64,000 bases of DNA from Bacteroides neonati (GTDB lineage: Bacteria; Bacteroidota; Bacteroidia; Bacteroidales; Bacteroidaceae). The translations under genes were made by a program, and so were the position numbers. Positions 44,934 to 64,000 of this stretch are shown here, piece after piece. The notes under the pieces are model-generated. The model saw nothing but the letters and a program-made list of their open reading frames with translations. It did no database searches and was not told the origin of the DNA. The stretch covers positions 62,001-126,000 of the forward strand of contig NZ_HG726026.1 of NCBI RefSeq assembly GCF_000499785.1, given 5' to 3'. Each line of letters starts with the position of its first letter. Position 1 is the first letter of the stretch.

Positions 44934-44942
44934 GAAGTAAAT

Positions 44943-45742: not shown

Positions 45743-45767
45743 ACCCTTACCTTAATCAAAGAGCATA

Positions 45768-45803
45768 AGCGTGGTTCCCGTTGGGTATCACGCTATTTTT
45801 ATT
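45768..45803 (+). terminator. Terminator ahead of the phage cassette
   Basis: AGCGTG (45768-45773) pairs with CACGCT (45789-45794), extended by an inner CCCGTTGGG, and is followed by ATTTTTATTTT. It insulates the phage cassette from the hicB region. Confidence 0.8.
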
Positions 45804-45835
45804 TTAGCACAAGCGTGTGTCTATCTGTATCTTTG
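45803..45835 (+). promoter_or_regulatory. Promoter of the phage structural cassette
   Basis: TTTA (45803-45806), a 21-nt spacer and TATCTTTG (45828-45835), 12 bp before ATG 45848. It directly follows a terminator and starts a run of about twelve rightward genes. Confidence 0.65.
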
Positions 45836-45847
45836 AACAAAAAAGGT

Positions 45848-46975: not shown

Positions 46976-46995
46976 AGAATAGGAGGAAAGAATTT

Positions 46996-48057: not shown

Positions 48058-48072
48058 AGAAGGAGGGATTAT

Positions 48073-48690: not shown

Positions 48691-49280
48691 TGTATCAGGA
48701 TGCATTAACCAAAGTAAATGAATTGAAAGCCCGTATGGATTCGGGCTTTTCAGATCAAGATAAGACATCCATATCTAAATTGTACGGTAGTGTACTCAGC
48801 AAGAATGTGGTGAATACCCGTTGTAGCGATTGTTATCGCGATGCTTTAATTGAAGTATATAATTATTTAAAACGTGAGAGGAAGATGAAAGAAAAATGTG
48901 ATTATTCATTGAAGAATGGAGTAGTGCTCCAATTCTTCGGTACCAGTGAAGTGTATACCAATGCCAATCTGACGAACGACGTTTCGGAAAAATACCTGAA
49001 ACAGTTCCCGGCTGCCGCAGAAACTCTTTTCGCTCATACTCCGGCTGATTTGGAAGATCGCTTGGCTAAGTATGACGAAAAGCAGAAAGAGGAAACGGTA
49101 GCTCTCAACGAAAATTTAGTCCAAGAATTAGCCGAGAAACTGGCAGGCGATGTGACCAAGAAATCGTTGAAAGAAGAGTACAAAGAATACGAAATCGACG
49201 GCAAGAAGGTGACTGCACGCTTACTAGATGCTCACATCAAGGCTGCTGATGAGTTGAATCTTTCGAAGGGAGGAAAGTAA
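48687..49280 (+). CDS. Phage cassette protein of unknown function
   Basis: A 197-aa, highly charged and mainly helical protein. A CSDCYRDALIEVYNYLKRE segment near residue 46 is reminiscent of small phage packaging or head proteins; the second half (VALNENLVQELAEKLAGDVT) looks coiled. The family is not recognised. It overlaps the previous gene by 4 nt and ends 3 nt before the portal-like gene, so all are co-translated. Confidence 0.5.
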   Translation: MMYQDALTKVNELKARMDSGFSDQDKTSISKLYGSVLSKNVVNTRCSDCYRDALIEVYNYLKRERKMKEKCDYSLKNGVVLQFFGTSEVYTNANLTNDVSEKYLKQFPAAAETLFAHTPADLEDRLAKYDEKQKEETVALNENLVQELAEKLAGDVTKKSLKEEYKEYEIDGKKVTARLLDAHIKAADELNLSKGGK

Positions 49281-49283
49281 GCA

Positions 49284-50459
49284 ATGAATGTAAAGACTGC
49301 AAAGAAACCAGAGTCGAGAATAGACACAAATTATTTGTCGAAGTTCAAGATGAGCACTTTCGGCAATGATAATCTGTATCCACAAACAATAGCTTCAATC
49401 GCTGCATCATCCGGTACAGCAACGCTATGCTTGAATCGATATGCGAAATTCATTGAAGGAAATGGTTTTAAAAATGTGGACTTTGCAGAGGTAGCTGTTA
49501 ATCGATCAGGAGATACGGCGGATAGTATTCTTCATTTGCTATCACAAGATTTGGCAAAATTTGGAGGATTGGCCATACACGTAAACTATAACCTGCTTGG
49601 TGAGATTGTCGAAATTCAGCACGTACCGTTTGAAAATTGCCGACTTGAAGAAGAGGATGAGAATGGGTATGTGTCACATATTCTCATACATCCTGATTGG
49701 CGTGGGAAGAAGACAAGAAATGGGGTAATAGTTAAGGTTGATAGCAATAACGTGGATCGCATCAATGTGTTCAATCCAAGAAAAAATGTTGTTTTATCGC
49801 AGATAGATAAAGCTGGTGGATTAGAGTATTACAAAGGGCAGGTGTTGTGGGTTAGCATGGCCGGCAGTAATACTTATCCACTAGCTATCTATGATTCAGT
49901 GATAACAGAAATGAGTACGGATGAAGGTCTTTCCAACATCAAAAATCGAAATACACGTAACAGCTTTCTTGTCTCTTGTATGCTTGTGGTCAAAAAGGGA
50001 TCGCCAAGAATTAACGATAATGGGGAAGAGGTTGAGACCAAATTGATTGAAGCTGATGATTTGAAGAGGTTTCAAGGAGACACAAACGGTAATAAAATAA
50101 TGCTTGTCGAGCTCGAGCAAGACGAAGAAGAACCAAAGATCGTGCCCTTTACGACCGCAAATTATGATAAGGATTTTACCGTTACTGACAATAGTACTGT
50201 CGAGCGTATCTACGCTGCTTTTAGTCAAGAGTTATTTTATGCCATACGAATTGGTAAATTGGGGTTTTCCGGTCAGGTGATGCGCGATGCTTACGAGTAT
50301 TATGCCGGTCAAGTAACGAATGAACAGCGATTTATTGAAAGGGCTTTTGATAAGGTATTTCGCTATTGGTATGTTCCTGTAAATCCTTCGATGAATTTTA
50401 GTATTCAACCTATTAAATATATGAATAGTGATGGAAATACATCTGATAACCAAGGGTGA
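49284..50459 (+). CDS. Portal-like protein
   Basis: A 391-aa protein that resembles phage portals: the N-terminal DNLYPQTIASIAASSGTAT, then a tunnel-like helical end (AAFSQELFYAIRIGKLGFSG, EQRFIERAFDKVFRYWY). Portals form the dodecameric ring at the head vertex through which DNA enters. The family call is moderate. The order is unusual because portal genes normally precede the protease and capsid genes; here it lies four genes later and no terminase is beside it. The next gene overlaps its 3' end by 29 nt. Confidence 0.62.
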   Translation: MNVKTAKKPESRIDTNYLSKFKMSTFGNDNLYPQTIASIAASSGTATLCLNRYAKFIEGNGFKNVDFAEVAVNRSGDTADSILHLLSQDLAKFGGLAIHVNYNLLGEIVEIQHVPFENCRLEEEDENGYVSHILIHPDWRGKKTRNGVIVKVDSNNVDRINVFNPRKNVVLSQIDKAGGLEYYKGQVLWVSMAGSNTYPLAIYDSVITEMSTDEGLSNIKNRNTRNSFLVSCMLVVKKGSPRINDNGEEVETKLIEADDLKRFQGDTNGNKIMLVELEQDEEEPKIVPFTTANYDKDFTVTDNSTVERIYAAFSQELFYAIRIGKLGFSGQVMRDAYEYYAGQVTNEQRFIERAFDKVFRYWYVPVNPSMNFSIQPIKYMNSDGNTSDNQG

Positions 50460-50943
50460 TGTACTCTCTTTAGCTAGACCTACCTCGGTGCACGTCGATG
50501 AATCTGATGTTGATGTGTTTATTGACGAAACGGAGCAGTTAGATATCATTCCTGCAATAGGGTGTGATCTGTTTTTGGATATTCAAGGAAACTTATCGGG
50601 TCCGAAATACGAAACGCTGTTAATGGGTGGTGTATACGTCGGTAGAGACGGTAAAAAGCACCTGTTTAAAGGGCTTAAAACGGCAATGGCTTATTATGTG
50701 TATGCTCGATTAGTGAAAAATGATGGCCGTATTCTTTCAGAAAGTGGTTTTTTATCACACAATGACGAATATGGGGAAAAGGTAGATGATAAACAGAAAT
50801 ATGCAAGCTATCATGATGCTTTGAATGTAGGTAAAAGGTATTTAGCAGATGTGCTCAACTACTTAAAGACTACCAATCAGACTTTTGATAAGAGAGCTAA
50901 AGTGAAAAATAACGGAACAAGAATAATTGCAATAGGTGAATGA
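50431..50943 (+). CDS. Putative head-tail connector protein
   Basis: A 170-aa protein from ATG 50431. The sequence DVFIDETEQLDIIPAIGCDL and LKTAMAYYVYARLVKNDGR resembles small Bacteroidales phage proteins (DUF6712-like in my memory) that lie after the portal and are thought to be connector or neck proteins. The preceding GTG at 50428 is a less likely start. It overlaps the portal gene by 29 nt and the fibre gene by 4 nt. Confidence 0.55.
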   Translation: MEIHLITKGDVLSLARPTSVHVDESDVDVFIDETEQLDIIPAIGCDLFLDIQGNLSGPKYETLLMGGVYVGRDGKKHLFKGLKTAMAYYVYARLVKNDGRILSESGFLSHNDEYGEKVDDKQKYASYHDALNVGKRYLADVLNYLKTTNQTFDKRAKVKNNGTRIIAIGE

Positions 50944-53900
50944 TGAGTGATACAGCTGAAGTGTTGAAGAAGCTGGCATTGCAAGTACGTAATGCTTCTT
51001 CTGCAGGGGAAAATACCGCGGAGAGGGTAGGACGGGTGCTTATGGGGTTGTTGGAGCTCCTTGATAATGACAACGAAGAGCTAAAGAAACTCTTCCTATC
51101 CAAGACCGGCCCCGATCAGACCGACTTCCTATTAAAGCTGTTGGGTGGTGCTGAAATAAGGAGTGGTTTAACCGTTGATAGCCTCATTGCCGAAGAGCTA
51201 GCCAAGTTAAAGAAGGGGTTAAACGTCACAGGTGGTGCGGATATCGACTACTTGCGTGTCCTTGAAACGATCTCTTCAAAGCTAGTTGATGCGGTGCAGG
51301 TGAATGCTACGAATGTAACCGCCACTGATAAGGTCAAAGGCGCAAAGGGTGAGTTCAATCTACTTGAAGCATTAGAAAGGATCATTGCGAAAGATGCAAC
51401 CTTTTCTGGTGACCTCTCTTCATTCGATTACGTCGAAAAGCTAATCGGATGGGCTATCAACAAAAAAGGGCATATCGATGCCGGATCACTTCGTTTACGT
51501 GATTTTCTTGAAGTACCTGAGTTACGATACAATCGAGTAACCGTTGTTTCCGGTGAGCAATGGAGTGCTCCGGGTGGCGGTATTATCGCCGAGGTGGACA
51601 CAGCTAATCGCATCATTACGATGAAACTTGAACCGGGAGAGCTGGCGGCTATTGCGATAGACGACATTTGCAAAGCAAAGTTCAATAACAACACAGGCTT
51701 TCAGACTGCCTACTTCCGCATCGTTGAAAAGATTGAAGAAGAAGGAAAGTATAAATACACCCTTCGCACCGGTTACGATTTCCATCCACAAAAAGCGATG
51801 CACTTTGTGGCGTATGGTAACTTTACAGACAAAGAGCGTCAAACATCGGCATATACCACACGTACCTATCAGCGTTATTTGTCCGGGGTGAATAACTGGG
51901 AGATTACCAAAGATATGGTGATGATGCAATTAGGTGATTTGTCTAATTTGAAGCTATTCGGTATCGATATGACCGGGCATAGTGCCTATTTGCGTAACAT
52001 CTATGCTACCGGGTCTATTCGTGTACTTTCTGCCGATGGTGCCACCGAAGTGCCCGTTCCTGTATTTAAGGGTGATTGGGTAGTCGGAAAATACTATTAT
52101 TACGACGAAGTAACCCATAATGGCAGTACATGGATTTGTATCGCTGAAAGCTTTACTACGCAAGTGCCGGGCGACAATGCTACGGACTGGCTCAAATCTA
52201 TATCAAAGGGCGATACCGGTGCAACAGGTGCCACCGGAGCGGTAGGCCCAACAGGAGCAACGGGTCATACAGGATCGCAAGGTATACCGGGTACATCTCA
52301 ATTCTTTCATGTACGTTATTCTACTGCTGCCAACGGTAATCCAATGATTACCACACCAAGCACTTATATTGGAACTGCCGTAACCGCTAGCGCAACCGCA
52401 CCCACATCGTATACCTCATACGTTTGGGCGCAATTCAAAGGTTCACAAGGTCCTGCAGGTACAAATGGTATTGCAGGTCCTGCGGGTGCTGATGGAAGAA
52501 CAAGTTACTTACACATCAAGTACTCGGACAATGGTACTACTTTTACCGCAAACAATGGTGAGACTCCGGGTGCATGGATCGGACAGTATGCGGACTTCGA
52601 GCAGGTAGATAGTACTGTATTTGGAGCGTATACTTGGACGAAGGTAAAGGGGGATACAGGAGCAACCGGTGCAGTTGGCCCAACGGGTGCCACGGGAGCA
52701 ACAGGAGCCACAGGCCCTACGGGTTCACAAGGTATTCCCGGCACATCGCAGTTCCTGCACGTTCGTTACTCTGCCAATGCCAACGGTAATCCGATGGTGA
52801 CCACTCCCAACACTTATATTGGTATAGCTGTCACAGGAAGTTCGACCGCACCTACTGCCTACACCTCATACACCTGGGCACAGTTCAAGGGCTCGCAAGG
52901 TCCTGCAGGTACAAATGGTATTGCAGGTCCGGCAGGCGCAAACGGACAAACATCATATTTGCATATCAAGTACTCCGATAATGGTACGACTTTCACTGCA
53001 AACAACGGTGAAATACCCGGGCAGTACATTGGTCAGTATGTCGATTTTACTCAAGCCGACAGCATGACTTTTTCGGCTTATACATGGACGAAGGTAAAGG
53101 GTGATACGGGTGCAGTTGGGCCAACGGGTCCTATCGGTCCCATCGGTGCAACAGGAACTACCGGTGCGACAGGTCAAGTTGGTCCCGTTGGACCAATCGG
53201 TCCCACAGGTGGTAAGGGCGACAAAGGCGACAAAGGTGACGCCATTGCATCCTCTTACATGAATGGAGTCATGAAGTATGCCGATCCGTTTTTTCGGACA
53301 AGTGCAAACTCCACGAACCGATATAATAATTCAGGTGGCAGCACCAGTATTTGGGAACGGTTAGTAAAGCCCGATGGCGTACCGGGTCCAAGTGGCTATT
53401 ATATGAGATATCGGTATTTAGGTGGTGGTTCAACTTCACCCGGGCTCGGTGGGTTCTATTTCGGCACGCAGACTTATAGGCATTGCGAGTTTATTGCTCG
53501 TATTATAGCCAATATCCCCAAGGGGTATACCATTAATTATGCGTCCAATGCTTCAGGCGATAATCCTATTTCGGAATGGTTGACGCCCAACATCGGCACC
53601 GGCACTTATACCGAATACGTTTACCGTGTCAAATGCTCCGGTACGGGTACATTCTCTAGTGGTATGTATTTTTACTTTGTTGGATCTGACGTCGCATTTA
53701 ACGTTGAAGTAGCCTATGCCACTGTATTTGACACGATGGCCAATGATCGTACTACCTACATTGATTCGAACGGAGTGTATACCGGTACACTCGTGGCGCA
53801 ACAAATTACCGCTACCAATGTCGTATTTGGAACGGCTAATATAGGAGACGGTACCATCACCAATGCTAAAATTGCCAATTTAGATGCCGGTAAGATCAAT

Positions 53901-54764
53901 ACCGGGTTTCTGAATGCGGCTCGTATATCAGCCCTGTCAATCACTGCCGATAAAATCGCCGGCGGAACGATTACCGCTGATAAACTGAATGTTGCTAACG
54001 TACAGGCTGCTTTGGTCACAGCTAAAGCAATAGAATCGTTGGATATAACAACCGGTCGGTTGACGGTAAAAGATGGGGCGCGCATCGGTGGTATGGTTAT
54101 AGAAAACAATATGCTCAAAGGAGGCAGCATGGTGCTTACCGAAGGTGCAGTTGTTGGCGGTTTTACGATCTCAAAAGATATCTCAGGCTACTCATTAATC
54201 AATAATGACCTGAGTGCAAAAATTGAAATAACGGCATCCAATAATAGATATCTTCGAATTGGTGGAAAATCTAGTACCATGATGGCAATGCGGCTAGACG
54301 CGGCATCAGACGGGTATGGGAATGAGGGGTTATCAATTCAGTCATACGGTACCAATAATGTATGTTTAAGCCTAATTGCTAACGCTGGAAGTGCATATTC
54401 TATACGCTCATTCGGATCACATGTGTTTGGCCAACGAAATGGAGAGATTTGGAACGCGCCCGGTGTTTTATGGGCAGGACGAGTGAATGCATGGGGAACA
54501 CTTGAAAATAGTTGGGGAAATGGATGTACGGCATCTACACGACGTACGAGCGATGGTAACTATACCATTAGCCATAACCTTGGACACAATCAATACTATG
54601 CCATAATACAATGTACACCGTATGCGACAGATGGATGGAGGTATATGATCGGCATGATTGGAGCAAAAGGCTTAAGTAGTTTTGACATCGCTCTTGTTGA
54701 TGCTGGCCAAGGCCTTAAAAATTGCGCATTCGAGGTGTTTATCGTAGGTAGGAATAAGTTTTAA
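50940..54764 (+). CDS. Large collagen-repeat tail fibre / host-recognition protein
   Basis: A 1274-aa phage protein. An N-terminal helical region (residues 1-200) with SAGENTAERVGRVLMGLLEL probably attaches to the virion. Residues about 423-767 alternate collagen-like Gly-X-Y runs (GATGATGAVGPTG, GPIGPIGATG, GDKGDKGDA) with globular modules, and two modules are tandem copies of about 147 and 150 residues. A trimerising repeat region (NIGDGTITNAKIANLDAGKI) follows, and the distal part (ISHNLGHNQYYAIIQC to the end) is a likely receptor-binding tip. It is the largest gene in the window. Confidence 0.82.
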   Translation: MMSDTAEVLKKLALQVRNASSAGENTAERVGRVLMGLLELLDNDNEELKKLFLSKTGPDQTDFLLKLLGGAEIRSGLTVDSLIAEELAKLKKGLNVTGGADIDYLRVLETISSKLVDAVQVNATNVTATDKVKGAKGEFNLLEALERIIAKDATFSGDLSSFDYVEKLIGWAINKKGHIDAGSLRLRDFLEVPELRYNRVTVVSGEQWSAPGGGIIAEVDTANRIITMKLEPGELAAIAIDDICKAKFNNNTGFQTAYFRIVEKIEEEGKYKYTLRTGYDFHPQKAMHFVAYGNFTDKERQTSAYTTRTYQRYLSGVNNWEITKDMVMMQLGDLSNLKLFGIDMTGHSAYLRNIYATGSIRVLSADGATEVPVPVFKGDWVVGKYYYYDEVTHNGSTWICIAESFTTQVPGDNATDWLKSISKGDTGATGATGAVGPTGATGHTGSQGIPGTSQFFHVRYSTAANGNPMITTPSTYIGTAVTASATAPTSYTSYVWAQFKGSQGPAGTNGIAGPAGADGRTSYLHIKYSDNGTTFTANNGETPGAWIGQYADFEQVDSTVFGAYTWTKVKGDTGATGAVGPTGATGATGATGPTGSQGIPGTSQFLHVRYSANANGNPMVTTPNTYIGIAVTGSSTAPTAYTSYTWAQFKGSQGPAGTNGIAGPAGANGQTSYLHIKYSDNGTTFTANNGEIPGQYIGQYVDFTQADSMTFSAYTWTKVKGDTGAVGPTGPIGPIGATGTTGATGQVGPVGPIGPTGGKGDKGDKGDAIASSYMNGVMKYADPFFRTSANSTNRYNNSGGSTSIWERLVKPDGVPGPSGYYMRYRYLGGGSTSPGLGGFYFGTQTYRHCEFIARIIANIPKGYTINYASNASGDNPISEWLTPNIGTGTYTEYVYRVKCSGTGTFSSGMYFYFVGSDVAFNVEVAYATVFDTMANDRTTYIDSNGVYTGTLVAQQITATNVVFGTANIGDGTITNAKIANLDAGKINTGFLNAARISALSITADKIAGGTITADKLNVANVQAALVTAKAIESLDITTGRLTVKDGARIGGMVIENNMLKGGSMVLTEGAVVGGFTISKDISGYSLINNDLSAKIEITASNNRYLRIGGKSSTMMAMRLDAASDGYGNEGLSIQSYGTNNVCLSLIANAGSAYSIRSFGSHVFGQRNGEIWNAPGVLWAGRVNAWGTLENSWGNGCTASTRRTSDGNYTISHNLGHNQYYAIIQCTPYATDGWRYMIGMIGAKGLSSFDIALVDAGQGLKNCAFEVFIVGRNKF
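52209..53099 (+). repeat. Tandem duplication inside the fibre gene
   Basis: Units 52209-52649 (441 bp) and 52650-53099 (450 bp) encode the same order: Gly-X-Y run, SQGIPGTSQF, HVRYS...NGNPM, TYIG, TSYTWAQFKGSQGPAGTNG, SYLHIKYSDNGTTFTANNGE and TWTKVKGD. Differences are spread out, so the copy is not recent, but long identical blocks remain. Confidence 0.85.
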
Positions 54765-54781
54765 CAATAAAATAACAAATT

Positions 54782-55120
54782 ATGAAAATCGATTTTAGAA
54801 AAATTGAGGTGAAAGACATTGATGGCGGTCCTCGATGGAAGAAAGTGAAAGATGAAAATGGAGAGCTTCACCCTTTGGAAGGTGTCCCCGAAGTTTATGA
54901 CATTTCTAAGGATTTGGGCAATGTGATTTACAATAACACACCCGATCTTGGCGAAATGGAACTTGGACGTGAAATCTATAGGAATGGAGAGGTCGATATA
55001 GATGCACAACAGGCAGTTGTGTTGAATAAGTACATTCGTATGGGGCTTGTTGCCTTCATTCAAGAGGCTGTTTGCCCTATGTTAGACAATATTATTAATC
55101 AAAATCAATCAAAATCATGA
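54782..55120 (+). CDS. Small phage cassette protein
   Basis: A 112-aa acidic, soluble protein starting MKIDFRKIEVKDIDGGPRWK. Similar small proteins (DISKDLGNVIYNNTPDLGEM, IYRNGEVDIDAQQAVVLNKY) recur near tail genes of Bacteroides prophages; the function is unknown and could be a tail-assembly chaperone. The next gene overlaps its stop by 4 nt. Confidence 0.55.
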   Translation: MKIDFRKIEVKDIDGGPRWKKVKDENGELHPLEGVPEVYDISKDLGNVIYNNTPDLGEMELGREIYRNGEVDIDAQQAVVLNKYIRMGLVAFIQEAVCPMLDNIINQNQSKS

Positions 55121-55422
55121 ATCAAGAAGCATTAGCGAGACGATTATCCTTATTGGATAGTCTCTCATTCATCAAAGTATCCTCAGGTGAGGTACGTCAA
55201 CTCAGAGTAATCAGAGGTGAGAATAGAACTAAAATAGTTGCTCCCATTATCGAAGAGTTAACTACTAATGTCGATCAAGAAAAGGCTGGTTATATTCAGA
55301 AGCTACTTGTCGATCATGAGTATAACGAGGAGGGAGAATGTGTCTCTATTCTGCAAGGAGAAGAAAGAGCACAGCTTGAATCTGCGTTAGTTGACTACAT
55401 TGTAGCCGGAGGGGAGTTATAA
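55117..55422 (+). CDS. Small phage cassette protein
   Basis: A 101-aa soluble protein beginning MNQEALARRLSLLDSLSFIK; no motif recognised. It overlaps the previous gene (ATGA) and is closed by a GC-rich hairpin at 55436, so the two form the end of the structural part of the cassette. Confidence 0.5.
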   Translation: MNQEALARRLSLLDSLSFIKVSSGEVRQLRVIRGENRTKIVAPIIEELTTNVDQEKAGYIQKLLVDHEYNEEGECVSILQGEERAQLESALVDYIVAGGEL

Positions 55423-55435
55423 ACCAAACGAAAAA

Positions 55436-55465
55436 CCGCCCGACCTATCACAGACCGGGCGGAGT
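55436..55465 (+). terminator. GC-rich hairpin between structural and lysis genes
   Basis: CCGCCCG (55436-55442) pairs with CGGGCGG (55456-55462), flanked by AAAAA and AGTTT. It comes 14 nt after the 55117 gene stop. The T run is poor, so it may attenuate rather than stop transcription into the lysis genes. Confidence 0.6.
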
Positions 55466-55620
55466 TTCCACTAACTTAAATATAGCTACGTAATGAATTT
55501 ATGACTAATTAATTCTTTGCAAAGATAGGGCATTGATTATCTGCGCACAATCGCTTTATGTAGGTATAGTTTCAGTTAGGGTAATTATAACAAGGTAGTA
55601 TAATCGTAAATAAAGAGTAA

Positions 55621-56055
55621 ATGGATGAAAGGAATGTGATTGGAGGTATTACCACCGCTGCCTTAAGCGGTTGTATTGAGTTCTTGGAGCCGCTTCGGTG
55701 GTTCTTCTTGCTGGGGTTAATTCTCATCCTTGCCGACCTACGGTTCGGGATTAGTGCGGCTAAGGTTCGCAAGGAGAAGGTTCGTTCATCACGGGCTATC
55801 AGAAGGACGATAAACAAGATTATTGATTATCTGTGTTGGATTTTCACGGCCGGAGCATTGGGTGCAACGTTCGGTGCGCCTTTTGGCATCACTGCATTGC
55901 CTGCACTAGTGATGCTTGTTGTGTACGGCATAGAGATCAATTCTTGCTTCGCTAATTACTTTGAGGCGAAGGGGAAAAAGATCAAGGTAAATATATTCAA
56001 GTTCTTCGCTAAGAAGAGCGATATCATTGAAGTAGAAGAGGAGGAGACAAAATGA
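55621..56055 (+). CDS. Phage holin family protein
   Basis: A 144-aa membrane protein with two to three hydrophobic segments (about 20-40, FFLLGLILILADL; 65-90 with WIFTAGALGATFGAPFG; and 90-110) and a charged C-terminus. This matches the phage holin family found upstream of amidases in Bacteroides prophages. It would permeabilise the inner membrane to release the endolysin. Its stop overlaps the amidase start (ATGA). Confidence 0.8.
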   Translation: MDERNVIGGITTAALSGCIEFLEPLRWFFLLGLILILADLRFGISAAKVRKEKVRSSRAIRRTINKIIDYLCWIFTAGALGATFGAPFGITALPALVMLVVYGIEINSCFANYFEAKGKKIKVNIFKFFAKKSDIIEVEEEETK

Positions 56056-56546
56056 AAACAATCGATTCAATTATTATTCATTGCTCGGCCACACGTGCCG
56101 GGCAAGATTTGAGAGCCAAGGATATTGCAAAGATGCACCTTGCTCGCGGCTTTAACCAGATTGGCTATAATTTCGTGATTGACCTTGATGGTACCGTCGA
56201 GAATGGCCGTCCGCTCTCCATCGACGGAGCACACTGTAATACCAAAGGGTTCTCCGGTGTTTCGTACAACAAACACAGTGTCGGTATTTGCTACATCGGT
56301 GGGCTGGATGCTAACGGTAAGCCGGCAGATACTCGTACGGATGCGCAGAAGAATGCTCTTTGTGACTTGGTGGCAAAACTCTGTAAAGAGTACCCTATTA
56401 TTGAACTGCTTGGTCATCGTGACACATCACCTGATGCAAACGGTAGCGGAGAGGTGGAATCATTCGAGTTCATCAAGTCGTGCCCATGCTTTGACGTGCG
56501 AAGTGAGTTTAGTAACTTTATGAAAAATGTAGTGATAAGGCCATGA
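56052..56546 (+). CDS. N-acetylmuramoyl-L-alanine amidase (endolysin)
   Basis: A 164-aa amidase_2 enzyme. The zinc ligands are visible as IIIHCSATRAGQD (His), GAHCNTKGFSG and GHRDTSPDANG (His), and the FDVRSEF end is family-typical. It cleaves peptide stems from the glycan during lysis. No signal peptide is present, so export depends on the holin. It overlaps the holin and the next gene by 4 nt each. Confidence 0.9.
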   Translation: MKTIDSIIIHCSATRAGQDLRAKDIAKMHLARGFNQIGYNFVIDLDGTVENGRPLSIDGAHCNTKGFSGVSYNKHSVGICYIGGLDANGKPADTRTDAQKNALCDLVAKLCKEYPIIELLGHRDTSPDANGSGEVESFEFIKSCPCFDVRSEFSNFMKNVVIRP

Positions 56547-57139
56547 AAAAGTATTTGATTATTGCGATAGCATTCATCGCATTATTGGGAGGGGTTAGTT
56601 ACCTCTTCCAGCAGAACCGAAAGCTACAAGCAGAGAATGAACGGAAGTCTGGGAATATTGAAACACTCATGGATACCGTAAAGCACTACAAGGTAGCTGT
56701 CAAGCATGGAGATAGCCTATTAATGGTAAACGCTGCCTCTGTATCTGCATTGAACCTCACTATTGACGAGTTCAAGAAGTATCGGGTCGATGATGCAAAA
56801 CTTATCAAGGAACTGGGAATCAAAAACAAGTACCTGGAATCAATTGCCAAGGTGTCTACTGAAACCAAAGATACCATACCCAAAGAGGCTTGGAAGCCGT
56901 CGAAAGAGCTACCTGACTGCTTGGAATACTCTGATAAATGGGCAACGGTCACAGCCTGCTTCAAGGATTCTACGGTAATGTATGCTACTCGTGATAGCTT
57001 GGCCTTAGCCGTCCACAGAATACCCAAAAAACGCTTCCTTTGGTGGACGTGGGGAACGAAAGGATATAAGGTGGAGATAGTCAATTTTAATCCGAGGTCG
57101 GAGGTCAAATATAGTGAGCTTATTCAAGTCAAGAAATGA
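56543..57139 (+). CDS. Spanin-like membrane protein in the lysis cassette
   Basis: A 198-aa protein with one N-terminal membrane helix (about residues 4-19, YLIIAIAFIALLGGVSYL) followed by a coiled coil (QNRKLQAENERKSGNIETLM) and a C-terminal globular part with KKRFLWWTWGTKGYKVEIVN. The third position after holin and amidase and the anchored coiled coil are typical of inner-membrane spanins. Sequence identity to a defined family was not established. It is closed by a perfect terminator. Confidence 0.65.
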   Translation: MKKYLIIAIAFIALLGGVSYLFQQNRKLQAENERKSGNIETLMDTVKHYKVAVKHGDSLLMVNAASVSALNLTIDEFKKYRVDDAKLIKELGIKNKYLESIAKVSTETKDTIPKEAWKPSKELPDCLEYSDKWATVTACFKDSTVMYATRDSLALAVHRIPKKRFLWWTWGTKGYKVEIVNFNPRSEVKYSELIQVKK

Positions 57140-57145
57140 AAGTTG

Positions 57146-57188
57146 AAAACTACAGGATTCAAGCATAAAAGATGAATCCTGTAGTTTT
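57146..57188 (+). terminator. Terminator ending the phage cassette
   Basis: AAAACTACAGGATTC (57146-57160) and its exact inverse (57174-57188) form a 15-bp stem with a 13-nt loop, ending in TTTT, 7 nt after the last cassette gene. Confidence 0.88.
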
Positions 57189-57344
57189 CTATTTACACAA
57201 AATATTGTGGACAGTGGCATAAAATGAAAAAGTCGTGAATGCAATTAGCTCACGACTTTTATTATTTACTTATGATTATTCTCGCTTAAACTACCCTTCG
57301 GTATCACCATAAAGTATTGTTTTCATATATCTATATTTTATATA

Positions 57345-58289
57345 TTAATTCCTTTTGAGTGCAAAGATATAACCTTGTCTTGGTAAAATCAAACCTTTAT
57401 AGGAATATTCTTCGCTTGTTTTGTCATTTTTAACAGGTTTATAATCCTCGGAGGTTCCTCTACATATAAAAGATACATCCATATCATTAGGGTGATTGAA
57501 GGTTACACTCAAATTTCTAACAATGTATTTTGCTCTAAAGCCAATATCAAAATCGTAATCAAAGCAATATTTTCGTTCTCGCTTCTGAACAATTTCATAT
57601 TTACTTTTTCCTTCAAGCTCAATATCGCATTGGTGTAAATATTCCATTTTTTTATTGTTAATAGTGGTAGTAATTTGGGGAGTTTTTTCAATATCGTCAA
57701 CCCAACACGACACTTTAGAATAATACTCATCCTCTTCAAGATTTTTGATGTTTATCCAAGTTTTTAATGGTATTGTGAATTTTTGTTGATTTTCGGCAAT
57801 AAGATCAAATGTGATTGTGTCTTGGACAATAATAAAACGTCTATCAGCATCTGCCCACTTTACATCTGTAATTACTCTATAATTATCGTAGTAGCTTACT
57901 TCATCATCTGCTAGATAATGTTTTTTTATAAGCTCAAGAAGTTCTTTGCTCATTTTGGGAAATTTAGACCTGAACATAGTTTTTGAAACTAATTCCCATA
58001 TTTCAACTATATTTCTTTGATTGCTTAAAAATTTCTCAGAATACACTATGTCTTGTAAGTCTCTTTTGAATATTCCTAAAAATTGAGCGGCATTAGATAA
58101 ATAACCAATAATCACACCTATAACTAATACGTCTGATATCTTTATAACGATTTCTTTCCAGATGCTTGCTGTGTCAAATCCAAAGTATCCAAATGCATAC
58201 CCTCCTATTCCTATTAATAATATCAGCCAAGCAGAGCCTCCTTTAAACTTGTCGTACGACAATAAGCTCTTATAGTTCATAGTATTCAT
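57345..58289 (-). CDS. Two-TM membrane protein of unknown function
   Basis: A 314-aa protein on the minus strand, opposite to all neighbours. Two N-terminal membrane helices (about residues 18-36 and 45-65; AWLILLIGIGGYAFGYFGF and ISDVLVIGVIIGYL) precede a cytosolic alpha region (70-150) and a beta-rich end finishing LPRQGYIFALKRN. I do not recognise a family. The two-TM plus cytosolic-sensor layout is shared with membrane effectors of defence systems, but this is not evidence of one. It is low in GC compared with the cassette. A TATATTTG -7 box lies upstream (58348-58341). Confidence 0.6.
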   Translation of the reverse strand: MNTMNYKSLLSYDKFKGGSAWLILLIGIGGYAFGYFGFDTASIWKEIVIKISDVLVIGVIIGYLSNAAQFLGIFKRDLQDIVYSEKFLSNQRNIVEIWELVSKTMFRSKFPKMSKELLELIKKHYLADDEVSYYDNYRVITDVKWADADRRFIIVQDTITFDLIAENQQKFTIPLKTWINIKNLEEDEYYSKVSCWVDDIEKTPQITTTINNKKMEYLHQCDIELEGKSKYEIVQKRERKYCFDYDFDIGFRAKYIVRNLSVTFNHPNDMDVSFICRGTSEDYKPVKNDKTSEEYSYKGLILPRQGYIFALKRN

Positions 58290-58428
58290 TCAGTTCTTAT
58301 ATTTATTTTGTTAAAATTAAAACATTGCTTTTATTTTCTGCAAATATATTCTTTTTTTTTGTATTAAAGTTATATTTCTATATTTATGGTCTTTTTTTAC
58401 TGCAAATATCAATAACTTATTACATTTC

Positions 58429-58457
58429 GCCCCGTCTACCAACGGGGCTTTCTTTTT
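58429..58457 (+). terminator. Rightward terminator without an upstream rightward gene
   Basis: GCCCCGT (58429-58435) pairs with ACGGGGC (58442-58448) and is followed by TTTCTTTTT. It faces rightward but the only gene to its left is on the minus strand, so it must serve read-through from the phage cassette or an unannotated transcript. Confidence 0.7.
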
Positions 58458-58519
58458 CCCAATAAACTATATTTTTTACATTTATCTATTTTCTAAACTG
58501 TATATCTGATAAATATGTT

Positions 58520-58527
58520 TATATTTG
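58520..58527 (+). promoter_or_regulatory. -7 element for the HEPN gene
   Basis: TATATTTG, 27 bp before ATG 58554. It lies inside the longer reading frame from 58515 and so supports the downstream start. Confidence 0.55.
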
Positions 58528-58553
58528 TAAAATTAATCAATAATACTAAGAAA

Positions 58554-59024
58554 ATGAGTAGTTATAATGCTGAAACTGACTTTATCACAAGAACAAAAAA
58601 TATTTTAGAACAATATGATCAAAATAATTCCACAAGGCAGCCAGGCGAGATATATGATGTCACTTTATTGTTGAATTGTCTGATAGGGTTAGTTGTTATC
58701 CCACGGGAACGTTATACGGATAAAGTACCAGAAATTAATGTTGATGGAGATTGGGGAATTGCAGAACACATTGAACTTATTAAAGGTAGAAAGACTCTGA
58801 AGAAAACCGTAAAGCATATTAGAAATTCCGTAGCTCATGGTAATGTAAATCCGATTAGCGAAGATGGTGTATCAATTACTCATGTTAAGTTTAAAGATTG
58901 TATCCCATGTCGCAATTGTGGCGGTGAGGTAACATTTGAGGCTAAAATACCAGTCAAAGCATTAAGAGTCTTTACGGTCAAATTTGCAGATATAATGTTG
59001 GACATTATAAATATACCTCATTAA
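58554..59024 (+). CDS. HEPN-family protein (pEK499_p136-like)
   Basis: A 156-aa helical protein. The sequence DFITRTKNILEQYDQ, then YDVTLLLNCLIGLVVIPRE, fits the pEK499_p136 HEPN group; the nuclease signature RxxxxH is present as RNSVAHGN near residue 97. CIPCRNCGGE could bind metal. HEPN proteins of this type are RNA-cutting toxins or defence effectors. ATG 58554 is preferred over 58515 because of the -7 box between. The next gene starts one base after its stop, which suggests a two-gene module. Confidence 0.8.
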   Translation: MSSYNAETDFITRTKNILEQYDQNNSTRQPGEIYDVTLLLNCLIGLVVIPRERYTDKVPEINVDGDWGIAEHIELIKGRKTLKKTVKHIRNSVAHGNVNPISEDGVSITHVKFKDCIPCRNCGGEVTFEAKIPVKALRVFTVKFADIMLDIINIPH

Positions 59025-59025
59025 C

Positions 59026-59241
59026 ATGAAAACACTATCGAAAATATCAATTAAGGCAGCTACTTTCTTAAAATGGGAAGGGTACGATATTGATAAAGTT
59101 AAGCACTGTATGACCCTTCCTGATTTTTCGTTCATGCTTTGTGAAAATGCTAAAGAAAGAAAGGTTGCAGGAGTGACTAAATCATTGCCTTATGTAGTAT
59201 ACAATCCAAAAGGATATGATATAAGCCAGTCTCCTTATTGA
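59026..59241 (+). CDS. Small protein paired with the HEPN gene
   Basis: A 71-aa basic protein starting MKTLSKISIKAATFLKWEGY with no family recognised. It begins one base after the HEPN stop and must be co-translated with it. An antitoxin or partner role is possible from position only. Confidence 0.5.
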   Translation: MKTLSKISIKAATFLKWEGYDIDKVKHCMTLPDFSFMLCENAKERKVAGVTKSLPYVVYNPKGYDISQSPY

Positions 59242-59338
59242 CTTGTTTTGGCTCCTTAAATTCATGCATATCCTTAATTCCTTTTACATTTTATTCTGTT
59301 AGAAGAGGTATTTGATCCATAATATAAATATAATTAAT

Positions 59339-59773
59339 ATGGCTAAATTAGATGAAGCTAAAACATTGATACACTCTTATGAGTGTAAGTATCGTAACCC
59401 AAAATTGATTCCTTTTTTGATCAGTGATAAATACGACTTGTTTCCAACCGATAGTGAATCCGTTAATTGCTGGCCTAAATGCTATCCTTATGTAGATAGA
59501 GCAGGGGTTTATTTAGTAATGGATGCTGAAGATAATATATTGTACATTGGAAAATCGTCTGTAGCAGTAGGTCGAAGGTTAGGACGATACTTTGGTTACA
59601 GTGCTGATGGTAAGTCGTGCCTAATAAAAGATGAAAATTGGACTAAGCCTCCTAAATATATAGTAACGGTCGCTGTACCAATTGATTCTCCTTTTGAATG
59701 TGCTTCTTTGGAAGAATTTTTACTAAAAGAGATAAAGACGTCTGATAATTATAATTTATCAAAACGTTCATAA
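59339..59773 (+). CDS. GIY-YIG domain protein
   Basis: A 144-aa protein with a GIY-YIG-type nuclease domain: AGVYLVMDAEDNILYIGKSS holds the two tyrosines, VGRRLGRYFGYS the arginine, and ASLEEFLLKEI the metal-binding glutamate. There is no DNA-binding domain, so the target is unknown. The frame runs back to 59312 but ATG 59339 (MAKLDEAKTL) is the better start. Related stand-alone members occur as morons or defence-linked nucleases. A short terminator follows. Confidence 0.75.
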   Translation: MAKLDEAKTLIHSYECKYRNPKLIPFLISDKYDLFPTDSESVNCWPKCYPYVDRAGVYLVMDAEDNILYIGKSSVAVGRRLGRYFGYSADGKSCLIKDENWTKPPKYIVTVAVPIDSPFECASLEEFLLKEIKTSDNYNLSKRS

Positions 59774-59801
59774 GTAAAACAATTGTATCATGATTATATT
59801 T

Positions 59802-59829
59802 ACTCCACTTCAACGAAGTGGAGTTTTCT
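59802..59829 (+). terminator. Terminator after the GIY-YIG gene
   Basis: ACTCCACTTC (59802-59811) and GAAGTGGAGT (59815-59824) form a 10-bp stem with a 3-nt loop and a TTTTCT tail. Confidence 0.85.
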
Positions 59830-59883
59830 AGTAAACCTGCTGTCAAACATCTTTCAACTTACGATTAACTGCATAAACTTAAG

Positions 59884-59891
59884 TATCTTTG
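59884..59891 (+). promoter_or_regulatory. -7 element for the 59916 gene
   Basis: TATCTTTG, 25 bp before ATG 59916. It overlaps the alternative TTG start at 59889 and so rejects it. Confidence 0.6.
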
Positions 59892-59915
59892 GCTAAATAT
59901 AAAAAAGGAAAAAGT

Positions 59916-60518
59916 ATGTCATGCAATAGGTTTCGAAAAATAAAAAAGACAAATAGATGCTTTGATCACATTGATGAACTAATTCTTGCGAATAGTAAGA
60001 GTGAGGACGAGAAATATGATTCAATTATTGCCCATTATAAAGCGACGCATTCGGAGAGAGATAAACATTTAGCGGACATAAAGAATGCTGCCAAAATAGA
60101 AAACGCGATAGTTCTAGCAGCTACTGCAAGAGATGGCGAGGGACGTAAACATGGACACCAAAATTTAATACCTCCATCGGATCTACAGCAGTTCTCAGAC
60201 AGTATTTTGATGCGAAAAGATGATATCGTTGCTGCCGATTCTTTTGGTCAACTGTATAATATTATAAAAGAATCTAAGGTGGGAGGGGTAGGAGATCTTT
60301 GTATTTATGATACGGCTCATAGGTTAGGTCATTATCTTGGATTGTCGCCGGATGTAATCTATTTGCATAGGGGAACAAAAGAAGGAGCCACTAAATTGAT
60401 AGGTAAGATAAAAGAGGCCTATATTTCCAAAGACATGTTGCCTGTCCCCTTTCAAAGAGAAGATTTGTCTAATTCTGAGATAGAAGACATCTTGTGCATT
60501 TATAAAAAACATTTTTGA
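59916..60518 (+). CDS. Protein of unknown function, 200 aa
   Basis: A soluble, charged protein without a recognised family. Notable blocks: AIVLAATARDGEGRKHGHQN at about residues 64-83 and a conserved-looking VGDLCIYDTAHRLGHYLGLS near 127-146, followed by VIYLHRGTKEGATKLIGKI. The latter pattern recurs, to my memory, in small proteins scattered in bacterial accessory regions. The D, H and R residues could form an active site. It has its own -7 box and is not obviously in an operon. Confidence 0.55.
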   Translation: MSCNRFRKIKKTNRCFDHIDELILANSKSEDEKYDSIIAHYKATHSERDKHLADIKNAAKIENAIVLAATARDGEGRKHGHQNLIPPSDLQQFSDSILMRKDDIVAADSFGQLYNIIKESKVGGVGDLCIYDTAHRLGHYLGLSPDVIYLHRGTKEGATKLIGKIKEAYISKDMLPVPFQREDLSNSEIEDILCIYKKHF

Positions 60519-60712
60519 TCATTATAACGGTATTTATTTTGCTTATGTTACCACTCTGAAAAATGGATTTTAGTTCTGGGAGTGGGGCTTTTCATTATAC
60601 AATATTTGAAGCGAATTATATATGATCCGGAAATAAATACTGCCTTCCTTAAAATCTATCACGCTTTCAAGAAAATCCTTTAATAACTAAACGCAGTGTA
60701 TTGTCTTTTTCT

Positions 60713-60720
60713 TACCTTTG
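60713..60720 (+). promoter_or_regulatory. -7 element for the DUF2589-like gene
   Basis: TACCTTTG, 25 bp before ATG 60745; no good -33 TTTG. Confidence 0.5.
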
Positions 60721-60744
60721 CGTATGAACTAAAGAATCTATACC

Positions 60745-60957
60745 ATGGAAGAGCAAAGCAATCTATCTCCTGACCAAAGCCAAGAAGAACAATCTTCTAA
60801 GCGTCCAGATAACCGTGCAATCGATAGTTTTAAAGGACTCCCAATAGATGGTCTAATCGGAGGCCCTTTAAGAGCAGCTGCTGAAGCACAGCAAGAATTG
60901 GCAAATAGCACAAAAGAATTTTTGAAAAAAATGGCAGCTGAAGAAAATAATTCATAG
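60745..60957 (+). CDS. DUF2589-like mini-protein
   Basis: A 70-aa protein with an acidic, Gln/Ser-rich start and the core FKGLPIDGLIGGPLRAAAEA, then QQELANSTKEFLKKM. This matches the first helix region of DUF2589 proteins (LPxxxLIGGPLxAxxxAQxxxAxSTxxF), which are usually longer. The role of that family is not settled. It is preceded by its own -7 box and lies between the 200-aa unknown and the Xre/AAA/subtilase genes. Confidence 0.6.
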   Translation: MEEQSNLSPDQSQEEQSSKRPDNRAIDSFKGLPIDGLIGGPLRAAAEAQQELANSTKEFLKKMAAEENNS

Positions 60958-61019
60958 CAATAAATATCACTGGATCTTCAATATCATAATAGTCTGTGAA
61001 TTATTTATATCCTTGTATG

Positions 61020-61050
61020 TTGTTGTTCCAAAATTAATACTTATATTTGC
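61020..61050 (+). promoter_or_regulatory. Promoter of the Xre-AAA-subtilase operon
   Basis: TTTG (61020-61023), a 19-nt spacer and TATATTTG (61043-61050), a full-consensus Bacteroides promoter 46 bp before ATG 61096. Confidence 0.75.
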
Positions 61051-61095
61051 CTAAATATAGATAAAAAGCAAATATTGTTGCAAATTACATAAATT

Positions 61096-61308
61096 ATGGT
61101 AGCCATGGGCATTTCAATAAATAGAATAAAAGTAGTGCTTGCTGAAAATAAAAAGACAAATAAATGGTTAGCTGATGTACTTGGTAAAAATGCAGCAACT
61201 GTGTCTCGTTGGTGTACAAATGAAAGCCAGCCGTCCGTTGAAACGTTTTATCAAATAGCAAAATTGATCGATATAGACATAAGGGAGCTTTTTAATAAAA
61301 CGAAGTAG
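61096..61308 (+). CDS. Xre-family HTH regulator
   Basis: A 70-aa single-domain helix-turn-helix protein: ISINRIKVVLAENKKTNKWL, then ADVLGKNAATVSRWCTNESQ (recognition helix) and PSVETFYQIAKLIDIDIREL. ATG 61105 is an alternative start. It is 4 nt upstream of the AAA ATPase gene and just behind a consensus promoter, so it most likely autoregulates the three-gene operon. Confidence 0.88.
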   Translation: MVAMGISINRIKVVLAENKKTNKWLADVLGKNAATVSRWCTNESQPSVETFYQIAKLIDIDIRELFNKTK

Positions 61309-61312
61309 AATA

Positions 61313-62314
61313 ATGGCTAGAGCAGATTTAATAGTAGATTTAGTGCGATATGCGATCACCGGGAATAAACCTATGATCAAAAAAGTCACTGAGGCAATTG
61401 TTTCTGAGGAAAGAAAGAAACAACATACGATTTTGGCTGATAAAATAGAGAATGAGCTAAATAAAATTCGAGCTACTGATAGCTCTAATAATACAAGCTT
61501 AAACACTAATGGTAAAGCAATAATAGATTACAGAGCTGAAAGCTTAATCACGGAGATAACTCCAACAAAAAGATTATCAGATTTAATTCTGCCAACAGAA
61601 GTGCTTACCTCATCAAATCAGTTTATTCAAGAGCAGTTTAGAGTTGACTTATTACGCTCTTATGGACTTGAACCAAGGAACCGAATTCTTCTCATTGGCC
61701 CTCCTGGTAATGGAAAAACATCATTAGCTGAGGCATATGCCGAAGCCTTGATGGTGCCATTGTATGTTGTCAAATATGATAGTCTGGTCGGAGCTTATTT
61801 GGGTGAGACTGCATCAAGGTTGCGGAAGTTAATGGATTATGTTAGCACAAGGAAATGCGTGCTATTTTTTGATGAATTTGAAACTTTAGGTAAAGAGCGT
61901 GGCGATATCCATGAAACTGGTGAAATTAAACGAGTTGTTAGTTCTTTATTGTTACAGATTGACAATCTTTCTAGTCATGTAATCGTTATTGGTGCTACAA
62001 ATCATCCGGAGTTATTGGATAGAGCTGTGTGGAGAAGGTTCCAGATCAAAATATCCCTGCCAATTCCAACAAGGGTGAATATTGTTTCATGGCTAGATCA
62101 ATTTCAAAATAAGCATAGAATTCGATTTGAATATGCTTCTGAAACGATAGCTAAAAAACTATTAGGGATAAATTATGCTGAATTAGAAGAATTTGGTCTG
62201 TCAATATTAAGACAGTATGTATTATCTTTACCGGATTCAAATATGAAAGACATTGTATCTAATGAGTTGAAAAATAAAGCAAATAATATATCTGACTCAG
62301 AGTCTAAGAAATAA
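61313..62314 (+). CDS. ietA: AAA+ ATPase, IetA-like
   Basis: A 333-aa AAA+ protein. Walker A LIGPPGNGKTSLAEAYAEAL is near residues 127-146, Walker B CVLFFDEFE near 182-190, sensor 1 and the arginine finger in GATNHPELLDRAVWRRF; the last 80 residues are the small helical lid. The first 90 residues are a helical, charged region. In IetAS (described in the 2020 survey of defence genes by Gao and colleagues) an AAA ATPase precedes a subtilisin-like protease; the same order, spacing (8 nt) and sizes are seen here. Name and role are by analogy. Confidence 0.8.
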   Translation: MARADLIVDLVRYAITGNKPMIKKVTEAIVSEERKKQHTILADKIENELNKIRATDSSNNTSLNTNGKAIIDYRAESLITEITPTKRLSDLILPTEVLTSSNQFIQEQFRVDLLRSYGLEPRNRILLIGPPGNGKTSLAEAYAEALMVPLYVVKYDSLVGAYLGETASRLRKLMDYVSTRKCVLFFDEFETLGKERGDIHETGEIKRVVSSLLLQIDNLSSHVIVIGATNHPELLDRAVWRRFQIKISLPIPTRVNIVSWLDQFQNKHRIRFEYASETIAKKLLGINYAELEEFGLSILRQYVLSLPDSNMKDIVSNELKNKANNISDSESKK

Positions 62315-62322
62315 TTTATATT

Positions 62323-64000
62323 ATGCCAAATAATCATCCTTTATTATTTTTCCCAGAACCTATTTCACTTCAAAAAAAGGCAGGAGTTCGATTCATTCCG
62401 AAATCTATATCTTATCCATCAAATGATAGACAAACGGAACGTTTATCCCCATTGTTTGATGCATTATGTAGATCATTTGAACATCAAAGAGTTGATATTC
62501 AAAACACACCTGTGGGAATAGACCCCGAACAGGTGCTCGTATTTGAGACTATAGGCAATGTAGAGAACTTCATTATAGCAATCGGAAAGACAGATGGCTT
62601 GGAATGGATGGGTGAGATAGAATTGGATGATATATGTCCTTCTGATGATTTTCATTATACTGAGGTTGGATCAGAAGAAAAAAGTCTTCATGGGCGATTA
62701 TTTTTAACAATGACTAACCAGAGGGCTATGACTGAAATGTTATCTCTTTGGAGAGAGTACTCTGCTAATCCAAACATCAGATTCCGAAAAGGATTAAATG
62801 GATTTAAGGCTTTATTTAAACAACTTTATACTATCCGTAGATGGGATGTGCAGGATCGTTTAATCGAAACTAATGTTATTGAATATTGGAAAAAAGATAT
62901 AGAAGCAAATGAACAGAATATCCGTTTTGAATTACAATTGTGGTATAGTGCATCTGCTGAAAAAAGAGATACATCATTTCGTAGGGTATCTACCATCGTT
63001 GAATCATTAAACGGAAGATGCCTAGTTCACTCTGTTATTGAAGAAATATCTTATCACAGTATATTAGTAGAATTGCCATCAACTGCTATACAGGATATTA
63101 TCAGTACCCAAGACACTCAGTTGGTGAGATGTGATCAGGTGATGTTTTTTAGGCCATCTGGACAAATAGCAATTGTCTCAGATATTGAATCCGATGGGTT
63201 TGTTAGTGATGAGTTTTCTGATGATGAATTGCCAAGTGGTGAACCAGAAGCAGCTATTTTTGATGGACTTCCTGTTAATAATCACCAGAAGCTATCTAAT
63301 AGAATTATGGTTGATGATCCTGATGATTATAGTGATGGATATACAGTTCAACATAGAGTTCATGGAACAGCAATGAGTTCCTTGATAATACATGGTGATA
63401 TCAATGACAATGAGAAGGCGATATCAACCCCATTATATATTAGACCTATAATGAAGCCTGTAGCTGGGATGTCTAGTTCGATAGAAAAAGTACCTAGCGA
63501 TGTGTTATTTGTTGATTTACTCCACAGGGCAGTTAAGAGATTGTTCGATGGAGAGGGAGATAGCGTTCCTATTGATTCTATTAAACTCATCAACCTGTCT
63601 ATTGGAGATAGCTCCCTGTTGTTTTTTCATTCGATGAGTCCTGCTGCAAAATTATTAGATTGGCTTAGTTGGAAATACAATGTGCTATTTATAATTAGTG
63701 CAGGTAACCATGTTGATGTTCTTGAGATGTCAACCTCATACAGAGACTTCAAGGCATTAAGTGATCAGCAAAAAGAATATATTATCTATAATACTATTAT
63801 CAACGATAGAAGGAATAGAAGAATACTGTCGCCATCAGAGAGTATGAATAATATTACGGTAGGCTCAATAAGCGTAGATAATTCTCCTGAGAATTATTGC
63901 GAAAGGAGAATAAATCCGACTTTACATGTGTTACCAAATGTTTATTCTTCTTTTGGCGGTGGCTATAGGAAGTCCATAAAGCCTGATTTTGTTTATTATG
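62323..64000 (+). CDS. ietS: Subtilisin-like serine protease, IetS-like (3' end outside window)
   Basis: ATG 62323 opens a frame that is still open at the window end (about 559 codons). The S8 triad is partly visible: Asp in AAIFDGLP (about D314), His in HGTAMSSLI (about H347) and the oxyanion Asn in ISAGNH (about N462). The nucleophile GTS motif should come shortly after SSFGGGYRKSIKPDF, beyond 64000. The first 300 residues are a long N-terminal region typical of IetS-type proteases, without a signal peptide, so it acts in the cytosol. It follows the AAA gene by 8 nt. Confidence 0.82.
   Translation, partial: MPNNHPLLFFPEPISLQKKAGVRFIPKSISYPSNDRQTERLSPLFDALCRSFEHQRVDIQNTPVGIDPEQVLVFETIGNVENFIIAIGKTDGLEWMGEIELDDICPSDDFHYTEVGSEEKSLHGRLFLTMTNQRAMTEMLSLWREYSANPNIRFRKGLNGFKALFKQLYTIRRWDVQDRLIETNVIEYWKKDIEANEQNIRFELQLWYSASAEKRDTSFRRVSTIVESLNGRCLVHSVIEEISYHSILVELPSTAIQDIISTQDTQLVRCDQVMFFRPSGQIAIVSDIESDGFVSDEFSDDELPSGEPEAAIFDGLPVNNHQKLSNRIMVDDPDDYSDGYTVQHRVHGTAMSSLIIHGDINDNEKAISTPLYIRPIMKPVAGMSSSIEKVPSDVLFVDLLHRAVKRLFDGEGDSVPIDSIKLINLSIGDSSLLFFHSMSPAAKLLDWLSWKYNVLFIISAGNHVDVLEMSTSYRDFKALSDQQKEYIIYNTIINDRRNRRILSPSESMNNITVGSISVDNSPENYCERRINPTLHVLPNVYSSFGGGYRKSIKPDFVYY

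Follow-up and report, generated by a model that had tools for sequence, protein, structure and literature searches.

The window analysed here, a 64,000-nucleotide stretch of a Bacteroides neonati contig (G000:C8:62001-126000, G000 being our own genome), ends inside a three-gene unit in which we found xre, ietA and ietS arranged head to tail, with intergenic gaps of 4 nt and 8 nt. Coordinates are those of the window, and sequence past its end was read on L005, the next stretch of the same contig. The features are as follows.

44943 to 64000, on to the equivalent of 68637 (integrase, then tRNA-Thr), no strand: phage-derived integrated element that holds the unit (span of IMG/VR UViG_2617271080_000021)
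61020 to 61049, forward strand: Bacteroidota-type promoter, TTG at 61020 and -7 box TATATTTG at 61042-61049 (pattern match)
61096 to 61308, forward strand: xre, 70-aa single-domain HTH_3 regulator, probable start 61105 (ORF, Pfam)
61313 to 62314, forward strand: ietA, 333-aa AAA+ ATPase, PADLOC PDLC04232 (Pfam, PADLOC, alignment)
62323 to 64000, forward strand, stop at the equivalent of 64893: ietS, S8 protease of 856 aa, PADLOC PDLC04233 (PADLOC, alignment)

A preliminary description had recognised here a 70-aa HTH protein, an AAA+ ATPase with intact Walker and Arg-finger motifs and an S8 protease with Asp, His and Asn sites, and each of these assignments was borne out. Xre matches Pfam HTH_3 at 6.5e-9, the other matches above cut-off being HTH_26 and, weakly, Phage_CI_repr (9.3e-5), and comparison with relatives suggests that the Met at 61105 is its start. 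IetA matches Pfam AAA at 3.6e-31; when aligned with four relatives, its FFDE (Walker B) and WRRF motifs show no variation, and the Walker A motif is GPPGNGKT in IetA itself and two relatives and GAPGNGKT in the other two. IetS is cut by the window end and was completed on L005, and this extension past 64000, proposed earlier as the way to find a GTS motif, supplied the catalytic Ser as S607 in GTSNAAA, which begins at residue 605. The full-length protein matches Pfam S8 at 4.6e-9. In an alignment of IetS with 17 homologues that are 36-47% identical to it (18 sequences in all), D314, H347, N462 and S607 do not vary. The protease is presumably cytosolic. In a predicted model (pLDDT 65) the subtilase fold covers approximately residues 306-704, and the best structural matches, KP-43 and SubHal, span 306-826 with a Z of 18; a PDB sequence search with IetS returned nothing at 0.1. 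Within residues 1-300, a beta-alpha-beta-beta-alpha-beta stretch at 199-278 resembles a subtilase propeptide, but we do not assign it as one, few structural matches extending there (ranks 35 and 47).

Ahead of xre, TTG together with TATATTTG fits what we take to be the Bacteroidota promoter pattern, and the -7 box lies 67 nt ahead of a conserved INR codon, the commoner spacing being 26-41 nt. A sigma-70 scan yielded 23 sites against a shuffle mean of 22.8, and the unit's promoter was not one of them. The full-consensus promoter of the preliminary description is therefore valid for the Bacteroidota type only, a full sigma-70 promoter being absent from the scan. Just upstream of the promoter, 60745-60957 encodes a 70-aa protein with a DUF2589 start (3e-6), perhaps a remnant.

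IetAS identity and mobile setting

Searches with the PADLOC profiles gave 2e-145 for IetA and 2.9e-204 for IetS, the latter from the 559 residues inside the window. By every feature examined, namely profiles, motifs, gene pair and mobile setting, the pair is a member of IetAS, as had been proposed from the letters of the window, and its active site is intact; IetAS is already known, and this subtype is present in the PADLOC defence library. A missing catalytic serine or housekeeping closest relatives had been named as evidence that would speak against this identity. The Ser is present, and same-subtype relatives lie, by reading, beside type I restriction-modification (RM) genes (L039 and L040) or in a conjugative element (L088). 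No match to IetS was found at 1e-5 among 50,697 records of sequenced phages, and in plasmids there were 78 records, every one below 60% identity.

Related AAA/subtilase pairs have been described as toxin-antitoxins. In Mycoplasma mycoides, loss of the ATPase gene alone is lethal and the pair works in an E. coli neutralisation assay (PMC8562856), and SgiAT of SGI1 consists of a subtilase toxin and an AAA antitoxin that resemble IetAS of pTiC58 (PMC5006074). Because these relatives are toxin-antitoxins, we read IetS as a putative toxin and IetA as its putative antitoxin. The preliminary description mentioned neither this toxin-antitoxin character nor the prophage surroundings of the unit.

When examining the surroundings, we observe that a viral contig of 23,695 bases in IMG/VR encodes IetA and IetS identical to those of the unit, with neighbours that match by reading. 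The region at 44.9-57.1 kb contains phage genes, including a head maturation protease and a portal (PHROGs; 7 of 10 scanned proteins match), as well as lysis-type genes (by reading); no terminase or tail-tube genes were seen among the 10 proteins scanned and the ORFs read at 44419-57139. Downstream of the unit follow UmuC/UmuD-like genes (by reading), an integrase (Pfam Phage_int_SAM_5) and tRNA-Thr. The left edge at 44943 is a coordinate of the IMG/VR contig, and the attachment-site search did not fix the exact edge, with no direct repeat of at least 14 bases between L005:9641-9880 (integrase end and tRNA-Thr) and the window. Five relatives (G406, G404, G409, G403 and G408) were compared at tRNA-Thr. 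In G406, homologues of window 31.8-42.8 kb are followed by one long unrelated gene and tRNA-Thr, the phage block is absent, and the homologue of the next gene of our genome (L005:10315) stands two genes further on. Compared with G406, the block is therefore inserted DNA, which makes the unit a passenger of an integrated element derived from a phage. In G404 three other genes separate the homologues of 38.9-42.8 kb from a tRNA-Thr on the opposite strand, and the left flank of the element was not seen in G409, G403 and G408.

Besides head and lysis-type genes, the phage-like block holds one 1274-aa collagen-like fibre, and at its left edge is a Hint-domain fragment (44419-44835; Hom_end_hint 8.4e-7, below cut-off), possibly the remains of an intein-split gene. 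Genes for a HEPN protein (pEK499_p136, 1.5e-25; 58515-59024) and a GIY-YIG protein (5.1e-6; 59312-59773) adjoin the unit and may be extra defence cargo.

IetAS occurs in further mobile settings. G476 has the order Xre-IetA-IetS in an apparent conjugative element (L088, by reading), with an IetS 53% identical to ours. G481 has flanks that match this element at 93% and 91% around a slot holding a different IetAS subtype without Xre, whose IetS is 22% identical over 412 residues; near-identical conjugative-type elements (L088/L089 versus L090) thus carry two IetAS subtypes in one slot. G165 has another subtype in an apparent prophage (by reading), which has in common with the element of the window a lysis-type protein (38%) and a 314-aa protein (62%). 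The latter, of no assigned function, is encoded at window 57345-58289 and at L046:10354-11298, both of them regions with IetAS, of different subtypes.

The Xre family and the operons it opens

We assembled 49 distinct IetA loci, with three identical copies and one fragment removed, of which 48 had at least 250 nt upstream. The pool was filled by differently designed searches and cannot count as unbiased, and the own Xre family was the only one sought. Within the pool, the family stands ahead of IetA at 4 of 48 loci; all four are among the 14 loci of the own order, and none is among the 34 others, two of which are viral contigs without a known host. As 44 of 48 loci are without it, Xre is not needed for the pair and is outside the usual IetAS system. 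On the IetA tree the presence of Xre needs two changes, forced also by well-supported branches: our copy forms a clade with those of G143 and G476 (support 100/100), and G277 is apart. On the Xre tree the IetAS-linked copies likewise need two changes when the tree is free, but an AU test on the 70 columns does not reject a single clade (p 0.133). The earlier suggestion of a regulator added in Bacteroidales therefore stands as far as this count and the two branches go, but the regulator is not specific to IetAS. Regulators of other kinds may be present at these loci; at L040, an ORF6N-like gene was seen upstream (by reading).

The genome carrying the window has five copies of the Xre family, each first in a defence-like operon (5/5).

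Operon 1: IetAS
Operon 2: Drt3a/Drt3b (PADLOC 1.5e-90 and 1.7e-184)
Operon 3: HsdM-HsdS-PrrC-HsdR
Operon 4: cytosine methylase, AAA protein and DUF2357/PDDEXK protein
Operon 5 (on C6): 91-aa Mrr_cat_2 gene, HD-CE/HATPase protein (PADLOC 4.1e-7) and AAA_21 protein (Ppl, 1.1e-27)

The fifth operon is a predicted, not a named, defence system; its 91-aa Mrr_cat_2 gene (L092:5694-5969) covers the first half of the domain only and thus looks truncated, and the genes behind it are long. HTH_3 matches number 19 in this genome, 14 of them outside the family, and as a control the next genes of 10 of these 14 gave no PADLOC match at 1e-8 (0/10). With five copies each opening a defence-like operon, and relatives that mostly precede RM or other defence genes as set out below, the description of this Xre as dedicated to IetAS had to be dropped.

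Across the order, the family is present in 100 of 393 genomes (E 1e-10), and in a sample of the phylum, at the stricter cut-off of 1e-12, in 13 of 197 genomes besides our own. Among the matches listed we took 144 family copies, leaving out the five of our genome and the G143 copy before IetAS, dropped six near a contig start and drew 60 at random from the remaining 138; L130 was dropped for want of an open xre, which left 59 loci, and one of them, L150 (before IetA, G277), was among the sequences behind the profile. At 53 of the 59 loci a PADLOC model recognises the next gene at 1e-8; 23 of these genes were scanned singly and 30 were assigned by phmmer cluster, either with a scanned protein or, for the five Snf2 proteins, by match tally (five members matching DrmD). 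These matches are to be read as similarity, not function. Named genes account for 43 of the 53, with 34 of restriction-modification or PglX type, 5 Snf2/DrmD-like, and IetA, DUF4297, SspB and MkoA once each. The other 10 comprise 6 members of PADLOC candidate families, 3 pAgo matches, probably through one shared domain, and 1 WYL protein. No PADLOC match was seen for six next genes (L138, L143, L158, L127, L129 and L175); that of L127, of 90 aa, was not scanned singly and the gene after it is without a match, and in L129 a type III methylase comes second, in L175 an HsdR. Sorted by their first effector gene, the operons fall into about twenty groups.

Partitioning the neighbours by side, the 59 downstream proteins matched 308 PADLOC models, single models by up to nine proteins, whereas the 56 upstream proteins matched 54 models, each of them hit by a single protein. 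This control is weak because the upstream proteins, taken as the nearest ORF of at least 80 aa, are shorter and often spurious, and the number of matching proteins among the 56 was not given. Outside the order there were 14 loci, two of them without a next gene inside the examined stretch; the promoter box is present in 5 of 14, and 4 of 14 next genes (L230, L231, L241 and L244), the only ones assigned, cluster with the classified set. That the family often fronts unrelated anti-phage systems hints at a common mode of control.

In 62 of 64 loci (the 59 and the five of our genome) the next gene is on the same strand and begins between 40 nt before and 61 nt after the end of xre. Of 66 xre genes, 54 have the motif TAnnTTTG no more than 100 nt upstream, against a mean of 6.2 and a maximum of 12 in 200 shuffles, and in 43 of these 54 it is 26-41 nt ahead of the INR codon. 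We compared 52 promoters with a usable box, column by column, with 48 other promoters taken from the loci examined (320 tests each). Promoters of the own Xre clade are enriched in T at -4 (29/33; p 4e-6) and C at -13 (20/33; 6e-5), both of which the unit's promoter carries, and those of the other clade in T at -17 (19/19; 4e-7). These columns would agree with an operator that is specific to the family and placed between the -33 and -7 boxes, and shared descent of the cassette could be an alternative source of them. No conserved operator palindrome was found, k-mer enrichment giving mainly forms of the -7 box, and an inverted repeat in the own leader, dropped as a candidate, was not seen, by eye, in the leaders of the two nearest relatives. 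On the Xre tree, 21 operon groups need 37 changes (minimum 20, shuffle mean 43.6, 0 of 200 shuffles as low); the partner of the cassette is inherited to some degree, yet has changed many times, and 70 columns resolve poorly.

Readings of the regulator and of the pair

We favour, with a probability of roughly 70%, an account in which the element carries xre-ietA-ietS as a unit of IetS toxin and IetA antitoxin, with Xre as a portable autoregulator that holds expression safe; for Xre, this is the most likely role. IetS would be a cytosolic subtilisin-like protease kept harmless by its AAA+ partner IetA, and once the balance is broken, by phage infection or by loss of the element, it would act and halt or kill the cell, which would presumably make the pair anti-phage. 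Expressed from the promoter in front, which it would share with the pair, Xre would bind between the -33 and -7 boxes, probably repressing rather than activating, and keep expression safe; its family, in Bacteroidota, would consist of portable autoregulators at the head of many unrelated defence operons. Its single HTH domain without an obvious sensor counts against the autoregulator account, as do the 44 of 48 IetAS loci without Xre, the missing palindrome and the figures from outside the order (box at 5 of 14 loci, clustering next gene at 4 of 14).

The pair might instead be an addiction module only, which retains the prophage-like element and has no anti-phage role. SgiAT helps to maintain SGI1, a similar pair of pTiC58 is described as determining plasmid stability (PMC5006074), our IetAS lies near an integrase, the G476 copy in an apparent conjugative element, and the G481 slot holds another subtype. 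We consider this somewhat unlikely, given that L039 and L040 adjoin type I RM genes as in defence islands, that the Mycoplasma pair lies on the chromosome, where those who described it doubt a plasmid-maintenance role (PMC8562856), and that addiction and anti-phage roles are compatible. It is unlikely, too, that Xre is mainly an activator, acting after entry into a new host as a delay switch of the C-protein kind: the 34 of 59 next genes of RM or PglX type would suit such a switch, and delayed restriction is known from C proteins (PMC6237814). Of those 34, however, 22 have the methylase gene in first place, 9 a gene for the restriction subunit, 2 one for a fused enzyme and 1 PglX, so that the layout does not by itself hold back only the nuclease; moreover, the conserved columns between the boxes occupy a position that would suit repression. 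That Xre is simply a CI-like repressor of the phage-derived element, placed before ietA by chance, we regard as very improbable. Its location and the weak Phage_CI_repr match would agree with this, but the order Xre-IetA-IetS recurs in the conjugative element of L088 and beside type I RM at L039 (by reading), contexts that contradict it, and the family opens defence operons in general.

Beyond the portable-autoregulator reading, each of the five Xre of this genome might also control the promoters of the others, tying the IetAS, DRT3, type I RM/PrrC, cytosine methylase and Mrr/HD-CE operons into one cross-regulated immune regulon, which new operons would join through the same promoter-xre cassette, re-attached to new effectors many times in Bacteroidales. 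The presumed recognition helix is nearly the same in all five (T-V-S-R/K-W-C), and their promoters differ among themselves around the box, which makes easy cross-binding less likely; we hold such a regulon to be quite doubtful. The point of interest is that, across the order, a single small Xre family is linked to many defence operons, which offers a tractable handle on the control of immunity genes in Bacteroidales, a dominant gut order, after horizontal transfer, and a sequence marker for spotting new defence operons.

Comparison with known systems

C proteins are small Xre-type genes before RM genes, and our Xre shares with them its size, its type and next genes that are often RM; membership of that class is not established, and no C protein appears by name among the 16 PDB matches of Xre at 0.01. 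The nearest of these solved relatives, 3bs3 and 3omt (~3e-28, profile), carry names without a function ("putative DNA-binding protein" and "uncharacterized protein"). Among the matches listed, judged by titles and abstract beginnings, no publication treats this family as a regulator of defence.

With known IetAS (PDLC04232/PDLC04233) the unit shares gene pair, order, AAA and S8 domains and profile scores, and it differs by the additional xre in front; the other IetS models, PDLC02197-02202, are far from our IetS (4.5e-17 to 7e-11, with the 559 window residues). The likeness to SgiAT of SGI1 and to IetAS of pTiC58 lies in a subtilase toxin with an AAA antitoxin on a mobile element, and, unlike in our unit, no xre gene is mentioned for them in the available text of the source (PMC5006074).

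Among regulators, BrxR/CapW likewise adjoins many defence systems as a single family (about half of BrxR homologues), but is a wHTH-WYL protein with a likely ligand site (PMC9122601), whereas the 70-aa Xre is one HTH domain with no WYL domain among its above-cut-off Pfam matches. CapK/CapS genes also stand ahead of diverse immune operons, as a kinase and a DNA-damage-responsive STAS-wHTH repressor (PMC13373217), and Xre has no such partner gene or STAS domain. RptR, a 79-aa repressor linked to type I RM, is conserved in Gammaproteobacteria and, according to its authors, has no close structural homologue in the PDB (PMC12255303), whereas Xre is an ordinary HTH_3 protein with solved relatives; the RptR structure 9R2Z is not among the 16 matches of Xre at 0.01 in a profile search. 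RptR and Xre are alike as tiny regulators before defence operons, with control of the own promoter reported for RptR (PMC12255303) and proposed here for Xre.
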